Part shown: positions 5,008 to 15,244 of the stretch, piece by piece
How the letters are laid out: every line of letters begins with the position of its first letter
Numbering within the stretch: the first letter of the stretch is position 1
Assembly (NCBI GenBank): GCA_002842095.1
Contig: PHCB01000008.1
Span: forward strand, 1 to 64,000
Origin: a candidate division BRC1 bacterium HGW-BRC1-1
Lineage (GTDB): Bacteria; Sumerlaeota; Sumerlaeia; Sumerlaeales; Sumerlaeaceae
Length of the DNA: 64,000 nt
Direction: 5' to 3'
Notes under the pieces: generated by a model
Database searches by the model: none
The model's input: only the letters and a program-made list of their open reading frames with translations
Told to the model about the DNA's origin: nothing
Program-made: the position numbers and the translations under genes

Positions 5008-5934
5008 TTATAGTATTAAGACGGACTTACACGCTGCTTCTAATGGCAGCGCTTCTGCCCAAGCACACTCCGGCACGATGCAAATTTGTTTTCCCTTCTC
5101 CTTTAATTCCATGGCCTTTGCCACTTTGCCACCCCCCGCATCTCCGCCAGTCCACAAATCGTTGCCGTTTCGCCCCACAATGAGATAATCCACTTTGCAT
5201 GAGACGGCCCCTTTGATTATACCGCCCAGAGCTTCCGTGTGGTGTATGGCCAGCTCACGCTCGTAGACGAAGGCACCGGTGAAGCAGAACGCTTTTCCGG
5301 CGAAGGATATCTCGGGTGTCGGTGTGTCGTAGGCGATGCGATCCTTTGGATGGATATCCGCGCAGCATTCACCGATTTCGAACCGCTTGCTTTGGCATTC
5401 CCGGGTTGCTGGTTCGTGGCCCATAAGCCGCAGAACCAATAGCGCACATGACAAAGCATCGTAATCCGCTCGATGGTGGCGTTGCAGAGGGATTCCGTAT
5501 TCCTCGCAAAGAGCATCCAGCTTTCCACCACCCGCCATCTGCATGCTGCATCGAAAGCAAATCTCGGGAGCTTCAATGGCCCAGGCTTCGTTGCATTTGC
5601 AGAGAACGGCTTTATCAAAACCGGCATTGTGGGCATAAACTACTTTGCCCTCAATCAATGGCCATATTTCTGCCCACACAACGGGCCACGGGTCTGCATC
5701 CTCAAGTTGGCGATTAGTGAGACCGTGGACCAAGGATTGAAAGAACCCGCGGGGCGTTTCATCGGGTCGCACAAGACGATAAACTTGCCGGATTTGGTCT
5801 GGTGCATCGACAATGGCGAGGCCCACCGAGCAAGCGACTGCGTTGGATTTGTCCCAAGTTTCGAAATCGATGGCCACAAAAGGTTCGAAGGGTGGCTTCC
5901 GCCTCCGATCTTGCTTGGGCCTATAACTTTTCAC
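5008..5934 (-). CDS. DEDDh 3'-5' exonuclease (DnaQ fold) fused to BRCT domain
   Basis: About 308 aa. The N-terminal DnaQ-like exonuclease has ExoI DFET (D23, E25), ExoII HNAGFD (H102, D107) and ExoIII HRADYD (H154, D159), so the DEDDh catalytic set is complete. The C-terminal segment (about 212-300: FAGKAFCFTGAF, LGGIIKGAVSCKVDYLIVG) is a BRCT domain like those of NAD-dependent ligase and some exonucleases. The GTG at 5934 is chosen because GGGGAGGG lies 6-7 nt upstream. The longer ATG frame from 5973 lacks such a site. It is first in a three-gene minus-strand set with the DUF4041 protein and K+ channel. Likely role is DNA or RNA end trimming in repair or defence. Confidence 0.88.
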   Translation of the reverse strand: MKSYRPKQDRRRKPPFEPFVAIDFETWDKSNAVACSVGLAIVDAPDQIRQVYRLVRPDETPRGFFQSLVHGLTNRQLEDADPWPVVWAEIWPLIEGKVVYAHNAGFDKAVLCKCNEAWAIEAPEICFRCSMQMAGGGKLDALCEEYGIPLQRHHRADYDALSCALLVLRLMGHEPATRECQSKRFEIGECCADIHPKDRIAYDTPTPEISFAGKAFCFTGAFVYERELAIHHTEALGGIIKGAVSCKVDYLIVGRNGNDLWTGGDAGGGKVAKAMELKEKGKQICIVPECAWAEALPLEAACKSVLIL

Positions 5935-6106
5935 ATCCCACCCTCCCCGAATTTCGTGAAGTGATCGTTTCATTCATCCGATTCGCTACGTGGTCAAGCA
6001 CATTTGCTATCTGTCGGATTGGCGCTTGTCAGTGCCAAAGTCGCAGTGAGCTATGGCAAATCTGATTAATGGCTATGTTCCAAAACGAAGGGCATTTCGC
6101 TACCCC

Positions 6107-10809: not shown

Positions 10810-11346
10810 ATGTCATTGTCCAGGTCCTTAGTTATCTCCGTATGTGTTTTGGGGTTGGCCGGTTGCTCCAGCACCACGAGCAATCTTGGCTCCTCTTCTC
10901 CCGCTGCGGGACCCGGCATTTCGGGTGTTGCTCCCCCTCCCCCTGCGGCATCTTCGTCGATCACGGTTGCGCCGGCGGAAATGTATAATCTGGGCGGCAG
11001 GCGGCCTACCGCCAAGGCGCCGGATTCAGGGAAAAGTGCCAAATCCACCGCAGTGGCCAAGGCCGCTGTAAAACCCGAGCCGAAAGCTGTCGCGGAAAAA
11101 GCGGTTGCCGAGGCACCAGCCCCGTCTGCGCCGGTTGCAAAGTCTGCGCCCCCCGCAGACGATTATATGGACGACGCCGGGTTGCTTGCAGCTCCGGTGC
11201 GCAAGGGTGCCGGCGATGCAAAGTCGGAACCCTCGGCCCCCGCGCCTCAATCGTCTGTTGCCCCGAGCGGTGGAAAGTCTGCCGAAATTATGCCGGTCAG
11301 TCTACCGGCGGTGGAACCCAAATTGGATGCCCGTTTCAGCAGCTGA
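10810..11346 (+). CDS. Low-complexity lipoprotein
   Basis: 178 aa. Lipoprotein signal peptide MSLSRSLVISVCVLGLAGC with the lipidated Cys at 19, followed by Ala/Pro/Ser/Lys-rich sequence with no recognisable fold (repeated KAVAEKAVAEAPAPSAP type segments). It is probably a disordered envelope lipoprotein. ATG 10810 has AGGAGA upstream; longer frames would bury the signal peptide. A strong rho-independent terminator follows at 11395-11434. Confidence 0.75.
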   Translation: MSLSRSLVISVCVLGLAGCSSTTSNLGSSSPAAGPGISGVAPPPPAASSSITVAPAEMYNLGGRRPTAKAPDSGKSAKSTAVAKAAVKPEPKAVAEKAVAEAPAPSAPVAKSAPPADDYMDDAGLLAAPVRKGAGDAKSEPSAPAPQSSVAPSGGKSAEIMPVSLPAVEPKLDARFSS

Positions 11347-11394
11347 AAGCTAATCTCTTCCGGGGGATTGTGTAGAGAGCCATTAATAATGTCG

Positions 11395-11434
11395 CCCTTT
11401 CGAGATGCTTGAATCTCGAAAGGGTGCTTTTTTG
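11395..11434 (+). terminator. Rho-independent terminator after lipoprotein gene
   Basis: Perfect 12-bp stem CCCTTTCGAGAT / ATCTCGAAAGGG with a 6-nt loop (GCTTGA), followed by TGCTTTTTTG. Confidence 0.92.
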
Positions 11435-11523
11435 TTGGTCAACAAGACTTGACGAATAATTTCCCGTTCTTCTAACATCCCTCTGCGCGTGGTGTTTTAT
11501 CGTTCACGAAGGTAGGGTTGTTC

Positions 11524-11925
11524 ATGGTCTGGTTGATGCGCGTAGCAATGATTTTGATGTTGGGAAGTTTTGGCATTTCGCTCGTGCGGGCTGAGGTGAG
11601 CGATTTCCCAACGCCCGACATAGAGATCTGGCTGTCCGAGGGGATCGGCCGTTTCGGCGATTTCGAGTTCAGTGTGCTTGGGGGAAAACCCGACCACCCC
11701 ACGCCCAGGGGGGCTTTCCAGATTGAATGGAAAAGCCGTAGCTGGTGGTCGAAACAGTTCAATGCGCCCATGCCCTATTCCCAGTTTTTCAGCGGGGGCT
11801 CTGCCATTCACGAAGGCAGCTTGAGCTACATGAGCCACGGTTGTCTCCATGTCAGCAAATCCGCTGCACGGTATCTTTATTACGCCACCCGTGAGAAGAC
11901 CACCCGGGTTTTCGTCTACCCTTGA
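11524..11925 (+). CDS. Small L,D-transpeptidase (YkuD-fold) protein
   Basis: 133 aa. An N-terminal signal sequence (MVWLMRVAMILMLGSFGISLVRA) precedes a compact YkuD-like catalytic core: TPRGAFQIEWK, AIHEGSLSYMSHGCLHVSKSAA, with His96 and catalytic Cys107 in SHGC. L,D-transpeptidases make 3-3 peptidoglycan crosslinks or attach proteins to the wall. The domain is shorter than usual and lacks the common R after SHGC(I/L)R (His here), so substrate range may differ. ATG 11524 has AGGTAGGG 6 nt upstream. Confidence 0.82.
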   Translation: MVWLMRVAMILMLGSFGISLVRAEVSDFPTPDIEIWLSEGIGRFGDFEFSVLGGKPDHPTPRGAFQIEWKSRSWWSKQFNAPMPYSQFFSGGSAIHEGSLSYMSHGCLHVSKSAARYLYYATREKTTRVFVYP

Positions 11926-12025
11926 CGCGGTTATGAATCGGCTGTTGAGTGCGTGGAGCATTGTCTGGGGCCGGGGAATTTCAAACTCCGCGCATGGACT
12001 ACGTTCAGTCAGGTAGAAGCGATTC

Positions 12026-15000
12026 GTGGATTTCGTACACCTTCACGTTCATAGCCATTATTCGATGGAAGACGGCGTTGCCTCGGTCACCGACCTTGCG
12101 CAGCGCGCTCGCAGTTTGGGCATGCGCGCACTTGCCCTCACCGATCACAACACCCTGGCTGGTGTGATCCCTTTCTCCCGCGCCTGTAACGAGGCGGGTG
12201 TTCGACCGATCATCGGCTGTGAGCTGGACGTTGCCGCCTTCGACGCCAAAGTTGCCACGTATTCGCATTACCGCATGGTGGTGTTGTGCCAGACGGAGTT
12301 GGGTTACAGGAACCTGGTCTGGCTGGTGGCTCGTGCCCATGCGAATGTTACCGCGAGGCAGAGCCGGCCCCTGCTGCGTTTCGATGACCTGAAAAACCAC
12401 GCGGCGGGTCTTCTGGTTCTTACGGGAGGCATGAACACCGAACTCTATCATCTGCTCGAGGCAGGGCGACTTGATGAAACCGAGTCCCACGTGGCCGAGT
12501 TGGTGCGCATATTCGAGCGGGCCAACGTGGTGTTTGAGGTACAGGATTTTGCCCAGCCACGACAAAAGGAAATAAACCGCCAGATTTTCGACCTCGCGGA
12601 ATTTCTCTCGATGCGGATCGTCGCCACGAACGACGTGCATTACCTGCGTCCCGAAGACGGGGTTTGTTTCGATTTCCTGAAGGGGGAACGACCGCCGACG
12701 TTCTGGGATTTCTCCGCCGCCCGCAGTCCGGAGTCCACGCGGCACCTAGCCACCAGCGATGAGATGCGTCGTCGTTTCCACTCCATGGCCAAGGCGTGTT
12801 TCGCCACCAACGAGATCGCGGAGTTGTGTGGCTTCCAGTTGAATTTTCACAAGCGCCGCTTTCCCGTTCAGGATTTCGTACGCGGGTTCGATGCGGATTC
12901 CTTCCTGTGGGACCTGACTTTTCGAGAGGCGCGCTCGCGCTACACGCAACTGAGCAACGAGATGAAGGACCGTCTCAACCTCGAGTTCGAAACCATTAAA
13001 GCAGAGGGGCTTTCCAACAACATTATGTTGCTGTGGAACGTGGCTCAGTACTGCCGCCAGAATGGCATCCACATGGGCGTGGGCCGGGGGAATATGATTT
13101 CGAGCCTGGTCGCCTATATCCTCGGTATAACGCAGATCAACCCCATGGATTACAAACTACGTTTTCTTGGGTTCGATGAGGATGAATCGGACAAGCCGGG
13201 GGAGAGGGCGCGGAGCCGCTGCCTTACGGTGGAAATCTCGAAGAAGCACACGAAGGAACTCATGGAGTTTCTGCGACAGGCGATCGGTCCCGATTCCGTA
13301 AGCGCCGTGGGCAAATATGCGCCGATGTCGCGGACCTCGCTGGCAAAGGATATCTGCAACTGGTTCAATTGCTCGACTACCATTCTGGATAAGATGGTGG
13401 ATCATCCCCGCGATGGGTACGGACGTCTTCCGGAACTCGAAAAATATTTTCCTCCAAAGCGTGGGGATGGTGTGGCGCTGCCGCATCCGGGTCTGATCAG
13501 TTTCATGCTTTCGCGACTGCTGCCCAGACCGAGGGTGCTGGATGTGATGAGCAATCACATCGCGTTGTCGGGGGAGAATCTGAACAATCTCGTCCCGCGT
13601 CAGGAAGCTTGCGATGAGATGGTCACGCAATTCGACGCCGCAGCGCTGGACGCTCTCAACATCCCCCGGTTGCTGATCGAGCCGCACCCACTACTGAACA
13701 TCATCGATTCCGCAACCGTTTGGGTCCATAAGGAAGACAATCCCAATTTTGACCCGGACAAAATTAATCTGGATGATAGCCCGACCTATGACCTTCTGTC
13801 CGAGGGACGCACGAACGGGATAGGCCCGTTCCATTCGATTTCGTTGAAGTCGTTGCTGCGCATGCACCATCCGCGGAACTTCATGGGGTTGATGAAACTC
13901 AAGAGCATGGACCGCACCGCGGCAGCGGATCACGAACCCGACGTGCGCGATCATGTGCCGGATTGTCTGCTCACGTATCGTTGCGCCTTCATCAAAGCCC
14001 ACTTCTCCCGCAGCTTTATGGCCGCATTGCTCACGCACACCCACGATGAAGACTGGAAACGGTTCACGCTTGTGCTGCGCGAGGCAAAGCAGATGAACCT
14101 CCAGATTCTGCCGCCCGACATCAACCGCAGCCAATACGAATTTTCCCACGAGCACAAAGCCATTCGCACCGGGTTGAAGGTCATCAACGGGTTGGGTTTG
14201 AAGACCTATGCCGAAATCGAACGGGTTCGGAAAAGCGGCGACTTCAACGATCTGGTCGAGCTTGTGCGCCGCACCGATGGGAGACTGGTCAATTCTTCTG
14301 TGCTGGGTAATCTTGTAAAGGCCGGTGCCCTGGATTGCTTCGGTTTCTACCGGTCCCAAATGTTGGCGATGATTGCCGAGGGGCTGAAGGTGGGCCGCGA
14401 AGATGGTTCCCAGACGAACCTTTTTGATCTGAGTGCCGACAAGGATTTCTTAAACGGTATCGACCCGCCCAACATTCCCGAAATGTCGCCGCCGGATATG
14501 ATGCGTAACGAGATCGCGGCCACCGGTTATTGCATTTCCGAGGACCAGTTGCATCTCTACAGCGATCTGATGCGACGATGCCGGGCCCTTCCCCCCACGG
14601 GGCTTACACCGCGCATGGTGGACAGCGAAGTCCACATTGCCGGTTTTCTGGATCACGTGGAAACGGAAAGCTTCCTCACCATGGAAGACCGCGAACAGGT
14701 CCTGTTGGATTTGGAAGGCCACGTGGTCAGCATGCCCCGCAAGGCAGCGAATCTTTATGCGAAGGCATTGGTGGCCAACGCTCCCGTGTTGGTGGGCGGC
14801 ACCGTGAAACGGCGCAAGGACGAGATCTACCTCAAGGGCGTAACTGCTTTCACGCTGCGCATGGTTCAGCAGATGAGCGAAGAAGTGCTGAAGATGGAGT
14901 TGAACCTTGAGGGGGAGGATATACGAACGCTGCTCTTCATTCGGCGCCTGGTGAAACTCCATCGAGGCGGCGCCACCGGGGTGACCATTATCAATGAGCC

Positions 15001-15244
15001 CTCGGGGTGGTTGGCCCGCATGTTGGCGCAATCGATTCGCAAAACGCCGGTCTTCTTCAGCCCGCCTGTTTATTACGCTCTGAAGAAGATTCTTTCCGAG
15101 GAGCGCATCGCTTTGGAGGCCGGCGAAAACGCTGATCCGGATCTGCTCCATGCGCTGTCGCCCTCGCGCTTCCCGCGCACGTCGGAAAATATAACCGCCG
15201 CCATCAAGATCATCGATCCGGCCGCGGTGGTGGATGTTTATTAG
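12026..15244 (+). CDS. DnaE-family protein (DNA polymerase III alpha homolog) with lost polymerase active site
   Basis: 1072 aa. The PHP domain is intact (HLHVHSHYS at 5-13, LTDH 38-41, IIGCE 62-66, VATNDVHYL 199-207). The DnaE palm landmark GVGRGN is at 351-356. The usual PDIDIDF, which holds two catalytic Asp, is replaced by RCLTVEI (398-404). The third Asp, in GLLKFDFLGL, falls in NIPRLLIEPH (545-554) and is absent. The conserved RPGPM element is also missing (KSMDRTAA). A helix-hairpin-helix region (about 716-770), clamp-binding motif QTNLF (796-800) and an OB-like C-terminus (about 865-960) remain. No frameshift or stop occurs. Length is close to DnaE2/ImuC, but imuA/imuB are not adjacent. 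GTG start. Likely a structural, clamp-associated protein rather than a polymerase. Confidence 0.9.
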   Translation: MDFVHLHVHSHYSMEDGVASVTDLAQRARSLGMRALALTDHNTLAGVIPFSRACNEAGVRPIIGCELDVAAFDAKVATYSHYRMVVLCQTELGYRNLVWLVARAHANVTARQSRPLLRFDDLKNHAAGLLVLTGGMNTELYHLLEAGRLDETESHVAELVRIFERANVVFEVQDFAQPRQKEINRQIFDLAEFLSMRIVATNDVHYLRPEDGVCFDFLKGERPPTFWDFSAARSPESTRHLATSDEMRRRFHSMAKACFATNEIAELCGFQLNFHKRRFPVQDFVRGFDADSFLWDLTFREARSRYTQLSNEMKDRLNLEFETIKAEGLSNNIMLLWNVAQYCRQNGIHMGVGRGNMISSLVAYILGITQINPMDYKLRFLGFDEDESDKPGERARSRCLTVEISKKHTKELMEFLRQAIGPDSVSAVGKYAPMSRTSLAKDICNWFNCSTTILDKMVDHPRDGYGRLPELEKYFPPKRGDGVALPHPGLISFMLSRLLPRPRVLDVMSNHIALSGENLNNLVPRQEACDEMVTQFDAAALDALNIPRLLIEPHPLLNIIDSATVWVHKEDNPNFDPDKINLDDSPTYDLLSEGRTNGIGPFHSISLKSLLRMHHPRNFMGLMKLKSMDRTAAADHEPDVRDHVPDCLLTYRCAFIKAHFSRSFMAALLTHTHDEDWKRFTLVLREAKQMNLQILPPDINRSQYEFSHEHKAIRTGLKVINGLGLKTYAEIERVRKSGDFNDLVELVRRTDGRLVNSSVLGNLVKAGALDCFGFYRSQMLAMIAEGLKVGREDGSQTNLFDLSADKDFLNGIDPPNIPEMSPPDMMRNEIAATGYCISEDQLHLYSDLMRRCRALPPTGLTPRMVDSEVHIAGFLDHVETESFLTMEDREQVLLDLEGHVVSMPRKAANLYAKALVANAPVLVGGTVKRRKDEIYLKGVTAFTLRMVQQMSEEVLKMELNLEGEDIRTLLFIRRLVKLHRGGATGVTIINEPSGWLARMLAQSIRKTPVFFSPPVYYALKKILSEERIALEAGENADPDLLHALSPSRFPRTSENITAAIKIIDPAAVVDVY

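Follow-up and report, generated by a model that had tools for sequence, protein, structure and literature searches.

At positions 12026–15244 (forward strand) of the window analysed here, a 64,000-nucleotide stretch from the candidate division BRC1 bacterium HGW-BRC1-1, lies a gene whose product is a full-length homolog of DnaE, the alpha subunit of DNA polymerase III, but lacks the residues that make DnaE an enzyme. This locus raises the question of whether a C-family polymerase has here been put to a use other than DNA synthesis, and if so, to which.

A DnaE homolog without a polymerase active site

The gene opens with a GTG start codon at 12026 and its stop codon ends at 15244, giving an uninterrupted translation of 1072 aa, and a preliminary description had read it as an intact frame in which all three polymerase aspartates were lost. 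This reading was borne out by aligning the protein with the genome's own intact DnaE1 and with 28 relatives (E. coli numbering for DnaE). RCLTVEI (13217–13237, residues 398–404) takes the place of PDIDIDF, with D401, D403 and D405 replaced by C399, T401 and E403, while RLLIEPH (13667–13687, residues 548–554) takes the place of KMDFLGL, with K553 and D555 replaced by R548 and L550; no alignment with three acidic residues at the catalytic positions was obtained. The D401/D403/D555 triad is retained in none of the 29 members of the dead DnaE family, no member having more than one of its aspartates, vs. ~166 of ~166 full-length C-family controls (79 cellular, 80 viral, and 7 DnaE2-type proteins, the host's own DnaE1 not counted), and hence the loss is not attributable to chance. 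The only control proteins without a full triad were partial frames.

The loss extends to the fingers. RPGPM had been noted as missing, without the deletion being recognized as such; in fact, the fingers remnant (13691–14005, residues 556–660) lacks ~104 residues spanning RPGP to the FNKSH region, with the junction near residues 630–640. Between the same landmarks, the protein has 55 aa vs. 159 aa in DnaE1, and all 29 family members have 46–67 aa, so that the complete fingers of an active C-family enzyme (RPGP plus FNKSH region) are lacking.

Domain architecture and predicted structure

The remaining layout comprises PHP, palm, thumb, helix-hairpin-helix (HhH), clamp motif, OB fold, and a DnaE1-type C-terminal domain (CTD). 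Pfam matches cover the PHP domain (PF02811), DNA_pol3_alpha (PF07733), the finger domain (PF17657, a partial match of residues 557–632 to profile positions 2–77 of 166), and HHH_6 (PF14579), and NCBIfam DnaE models give strong matches, concentrated in residues 2–630, yet below their cut-offs. Sequence and fold over PHP, Pol3, (HhH)2, and OB thus identify the protein as a C-family homolog of the DnaE type by descent. An AlphaFold2 model (pLDDT 83.8, pTM 0.79), whose 36-row alignment consists mostly of active DnaE1 relatives and therefore biases it towards their fold, is closest to Pol III alpha of Taq (Foldseek, 2hpi, E 2.4e-61) and E. coli (VIA, 4jom, Z 43.5, 761 residues, rmsd 4.6). Based on this model, the fold matches, and the divergence ratios given below, the palm and thumb region (12836–13690, residues 271–555) has kept its fold while losing its catalytic residues.

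Downstream of the fingers remnant, several features point to interactions with DNA and the sliding clamp. The HhH domain (14099–14362, residues 692–779, PF14579) is a probable contact to duplex DNA, and the wider region of residues 661–790 is more basic than in DnaE1, with a mean net charge of +4.8 in the dead family vs. −3.5 in DnaE1 (Wilcoxon p = 0.0003). It is followed by QTNLF (14411–14425, residues 796–800), a consensus beta-clamp-binding motif of the QxxLF type at the DnaE position, exactly where the preliminary description had placed it. In the model, this predicted clamp contact sits in a flexible loop of low pLDDT (residues 794–810), as expected, and across the family F800 is nearly invariant, the Q varies, and some members (L014, L015, L016) carry degenerate motifs. 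The OB fold (14576–14851, residues 851–942) matches both the M. tuberculosis DnaE1 OB (VIA Z 11.6, 96 residues) and the profile of the class DnaE1 OB. The CTD after it (14852–15163, residues 943–1046), a trait of DnaE1, is homologous to the C-termini of DnaE1 from the class and elsewhere (hhalign probability 96.5%, E 7e-10, 86 columns). When folded alone, the C-terminal part reached a pLDDT of 90.6 and its PDB matches were carried by the OB fold; since none of the PDB matches listed was a clear solved-structure match beyond the OB fold, the CTD assignment rests on the profile comparison. In characterised DnaE1 proteins, the CTD binds tau.

Distribution, origin, and selection

As the preliminary description had pointed out, a pseudo-polymerase presupposes another replicative polymerase in the same genome, and a search for a second, intact dnaE found one. 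The host genome (3.77 Mb, 94.8% complete) encodes a separate DnaE1 on another contig (G000:C18), in a 1218-aa frame with PDIDIDF and KMDFLGL. Across 386 genomes searched with a profile of the C-terminal half, the dead DnaE family was restricted to the class Sumerlaeia (Ca. Sumerlaeota), with strong matches (E ≤ 1e-116) in 35 of 39 class genomes and in none of the 347 others, where matches were only DnaE1-like (best E ~1e-78) and mostly started after the deletion point. The class genomes without a match are G006, G018, and G035 (66–82% complete), together with G028, which has a 148-aa piece, and the gene is absent from G039 (87% complete), the one genome covered that lies outside the class but within the phylum. 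Frames are intact in nearly all members, which span 14 families of the class and come mostly from draft assemblies of many contigs. Outside the phylum, a degenerate-pattern scan built on a six-member alignment, the class-wide alignment being too divergent, returned only ordinary DnaE. Viral contigs likewise yielded only ordinary DnaE (≤31% identity, the full-length ones with the triad), the dead homolog had no match in PADLOC, and its PHROGs matches were limited to DNA polymerase families and unknowns.

In a 73-row tree, whose root is not settled, 27 dead proteins form one clade (support 100) and the Sumerlaeota DnaE1s another (97), with DnaE2-type proteins clustering apart from both. The dead family thus has a single origin. 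By this placement, and given the separate intact DnaE1, the dead homolog is not the genome's replicative alpha subunit, and it likewise falls outside DnaE2/ImuC, with which it does not group and from which it is set apart by its CTD. Among the DnaE1s of the tree, the subclades that make up the dead family (f1; f12; f2 with f6; f7 with f13) are seen again, as is expected under vertical descent from the ancestor of the class.

Purifying selection is evident from dN/dS, which came to 0.11 and 0.10 in two pairs from the same genus and to 0.20 in the pair G000–G005, for which dS is near saturation. To locate this constraint, divergence was compared with that of DnaE1 for the same genome pairs, domain by domain, as ratios of uncorrected identities (ranges over close, middle, and all pairs). 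The palm diverges fastest relative to DnaE1 (1.5–1.7, and 1.9–2.6 for its second part), alongside elevated ratios for PHP (1.3–1.4), thumb (1.4–1.6), and fingers remnant (1.3–1.5). Ratios are 1.0–1.2 for HhH, 1.0–1.2 for the clamp–OB linker, 0.8–1.1 for OB, and 0.7–0.9 for the CTD, which is thus more conserved than DnaE1's own. These ratios indicate relaxed constraint on the catalytic core but not on the C-terminal interaction half. Several residues, including R286, D296, G429, W446, R548, C653, and R685, are conserved in the dead family alone, which speaks for a separate function.

Regulation and gene neighborhood

The LexA box of the host's family (f1) is TAGAACN4GTTCTA. Exact GAACN4GTTC sites were found upstream of lexA in 6/6 genomes, polY in 4/6, and recA in 3, as well as upstream of an imuB-like gene of G005. 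No exact box was found within 700 bases upstream of any of the seven f1 dead genes, a result that covers this family and is compatible with other damage regulation. In the window, the corresponding region (11326–12025, forward strand) has no GAACN4GTTC within one mismatch, and G007 has a single one-mismatch site ~420 bases upstream (chance expectation, 0.26 per stretch). Neither E. coli-type nor alpha-proteobacterial LexA boxes were found at lexA or recA, and the GAACN4GTTC type, a Gram-positive-type LexA box, fits f1. The LexA motif apparently varies across the class, other families being without GAACN4GTTC at lexA (upstream regions L198–L227, L228–L257). The host carries two LexA-family genes (G000:C5:232616-233257 and G000:C1:104117-104710).

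Clustering of gene neighbors across 23 neighborhoods revealed no conserved partner of the dead gene and only local synteny within families, which in f1 involves a PPIase and membrane proteins. Except in G005, none of the 23 contigs clustered contained a DNA-metabolism partner. The G005 locus (L113:3339-8102, G005:C132) comprises an imuB-like PolY gene with an exact LexA box upstream and, after it, a DnaE2-type polymerase whose triad is intact; this pair is convergent to the dead dnaE, ~40 bases apart. Another C-family protein with the triad (~1113 aa; L190, G012:C34:21000-24800) groups with the DnaE2-type proteins of Desulfosarcina and G005. Within the window itself, positions 5008–5973 (reverse strand) encode a DnaQ-like nuclease in which a weak BRCT match comes after an exonuclease domain of the DEDDh type.

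Alternative explanations

An active polymerase with a rearranged, non-canonical site, hidden by misalignment or rebuilt from substitute acids, appears very improbable. Most members have an acid where E403 stands (D405 in E. coli), and in several, just one of the three triad positions is acidic; yet the D403 position is Asp in no member, position 550 is occupied by L, T, R, V, N, and similar residues, the central fingers are deleted throughout, and the alignment at the catalytic sites is anchored by near-invariant neighbors. Among candidate substitute acids in the palm, E403 alone is widely conserved, and it is insufficient for a two-metal site. The opposite reading, in which the gene is a decaying relic of an old DnaE duplication, would account for the lost catalytic site and an eroding PHP site, but is scarcely credible against intact frames across 14 families, the low dN/dS, and the family-only conserved residues, all of which agree with the earlier view that this is not a decaying pseudogene. 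More attention is due to the PHP domain (12038–12547, residues 5–174, PF02811), since the polymerase part could be a mere carrier that delivers a PHP nuclease or phosphoesterase to the clamp, as the preliminary description also suggested. For this there is precedent in inactivated PolX proteins that act through their PHP domain, i.e., non-canonical PolX exonucleases (PMC9226535, PMC12926913), and close relatives of the protein keep seven or eight of the nine PHP metal residues. The description of the metal site as preserved was too strong, however. The site reads HHDHERGDH, its last two residues (D203, H205) lying just beyond the domain, and retains 7/9 of the active nine-residue consensus HHDHEH[C/H]DH (PMC12926913). 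No dead-family member has all nine (best 8/9, in G010), compared to 17/17 DnaE1 proteins of the same genomes, and about half of the family has lost the site outright (L009, L013, L015, L018–L022, L024, L026, L027, and L029–L031). These proteins are still long, with the shared deletions and the rest of the protein in place, and the PHP domain diverges faster than its DnaE1 counterpart. Without the nine-residue site of an active PHP exonuclease, delivery of a PHP activity to the clamp is quite unlikely.

Unlikely, too, is an SOS translesion adaptor, i.e., an ImuB-like dead polymerase that brings PolY or DnaE2 to the clamp. ImuB, too, combines a clamp motif with a dead polymerase, and the G005 neighborhood places the gene next to just such a pair of polymerases. 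Set against this, the exact LexA box that marks lexA, polY, and the imuB-like gene of G005 is found at 0/7 f1 dead genes, no imuA/imuB or PolY cassette is present in 22/23 neighborhoods, and the host genome (94.8% complete) has no match to the Y-family polymerase domain (PF00817), which is present in 36/39 class genomes. The retained CTD is likewise typical of DnaE1 and not of DnaE2, being absent from every DnaE2 (PMC3919608). The preliminary description had envisaged a pseudo-polymerase that loads on the clamp to regulate replication or translesion synthesis; the conserved pseudo-polymerase with its clamp motif stands, while the translesion part of the proposal is weakened by the missing LexA box and cassette and by the DnaE1-type CTD.

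A probable non-catalytic replisome factor

The dead DnaE homolog is a pseudo-polymerase, and the reading we favor, and consider probable, is that it works as a constitutive, non-catalytic, clamp- and DNA-binding factor of the replisome, preferred over a PHP nuclease or an SOS adaptor because there is neither a complete PHP site nor a LexA box. On this reading, a single loss of the two-metal site and of the fingers core, no later than the ancestor of the class Sumerlaeia, befell an ancient DnaE paralog of full DnaE1 architecture, which has been retained alongside the working DnaE1 ever since. We infer from its motifs and domains that the protein would bind the sliding clamp through the QxxLF-type motif and DNA through HhH and OB, and domain homology suggests that the CTD probably binds the clamp-loader tau subunit. 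Its action would most likely be constitutive and take place within the replisome or on clamps already loaded, where it would serve as an adaptor or occupy a place without synthesising DNA. Its possible jobs include holding the clamp or primer end, handing over or recruiting factors, or filling one polymerase position; its exact position in the replisome and a role in handover are matters of conjecture. With similar caution, we tentatively suggest that replisomes across the class could include an inactivated Pol III alpha as a permanent and perhaps essential component, structural or regulatory in nature, that takes a tau or clamp position without making DNA. The presence of a dead alpha subunit next to a live one throughout the class asks what a replisome does with a non-synthesising polymerase, and it would offer a natural separation of clamp, DNA, and tau binding from catalysis.

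Relation to known inactivated polymerases

The B, X, and Y families have known inactivated members that serve structural or accessory purposes. If the present interpretation is correct, the Sumerlaeia proteins would represent the first inactivated group to be described within the C family; in the open-access literature, we found neither such a DnaE or C-family group nor a paper joining Sumerlaeota with DNA polymerase III. The Asp triad has been reported as absolutely conserved in the C family (PMC3919608), an invariance that is partly by construction since an intact active site was an inclusion criterion, and a 2026 survey of complete genomes (PMC12926913) does not mention Sumerlaeota, so that dead C-family proteins could have been missed.

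Compared to DnaE1, the protein shares every domain and its top-matching structures (4jom from E. coli, 2hpi and 4iqj from Taq) but is without the triad, the ~104 fingers residues, and a complete PHP site, has a more basic HhH region, and is additional to an intact DnaE1. It resembles DnaE2/ImuC as a second DnaE copy beside DnaE1, with PHP inactivation also seen in most DnaE2s (PMC12926913); however, DnaE2 is active, lacks the CTD, is usually accompanied by imuA/imuB or PolY, and is SOS-regulated, whereas the dead homolog, predicted to be inactive, has the CTD, stands alone, and shows no LexA box. Non-canonical PolX (PMC9226535) is similarly a PHP-bearing polymerase with a lost polymerase site, but its PHP exonuclease is kept and active, while the PHP site is incomplete in every dead-DnaE member. 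The nearest bacterial functional parallel is ImuB, which, like other inactivated Y-family proteins (iPolY), is a catalytically dead polymerase homolog with a clamp-binding motif; having a Y-family fold, a RecA-NT motif, and an SOS cassette, it embodies the same idea without homology, and its hallmarks of SOS control and cassette are not shared by the dead DnaE. Overall, the nearest functional parallel is found in eukaryotes, where the non-catalytic C-terminal half of Pol epsilon (Pol2) is an inactivated replicative module that serves the replisome structurally (PMC6265327, PMC9022971). That module belongs to the B family, is fused to an active polymerase, and binds the CMG helicase, whereas the dead DnaE is a separate C-family protein, which, if our tentative suggestion holds, would play the corresponding part in bacteria.
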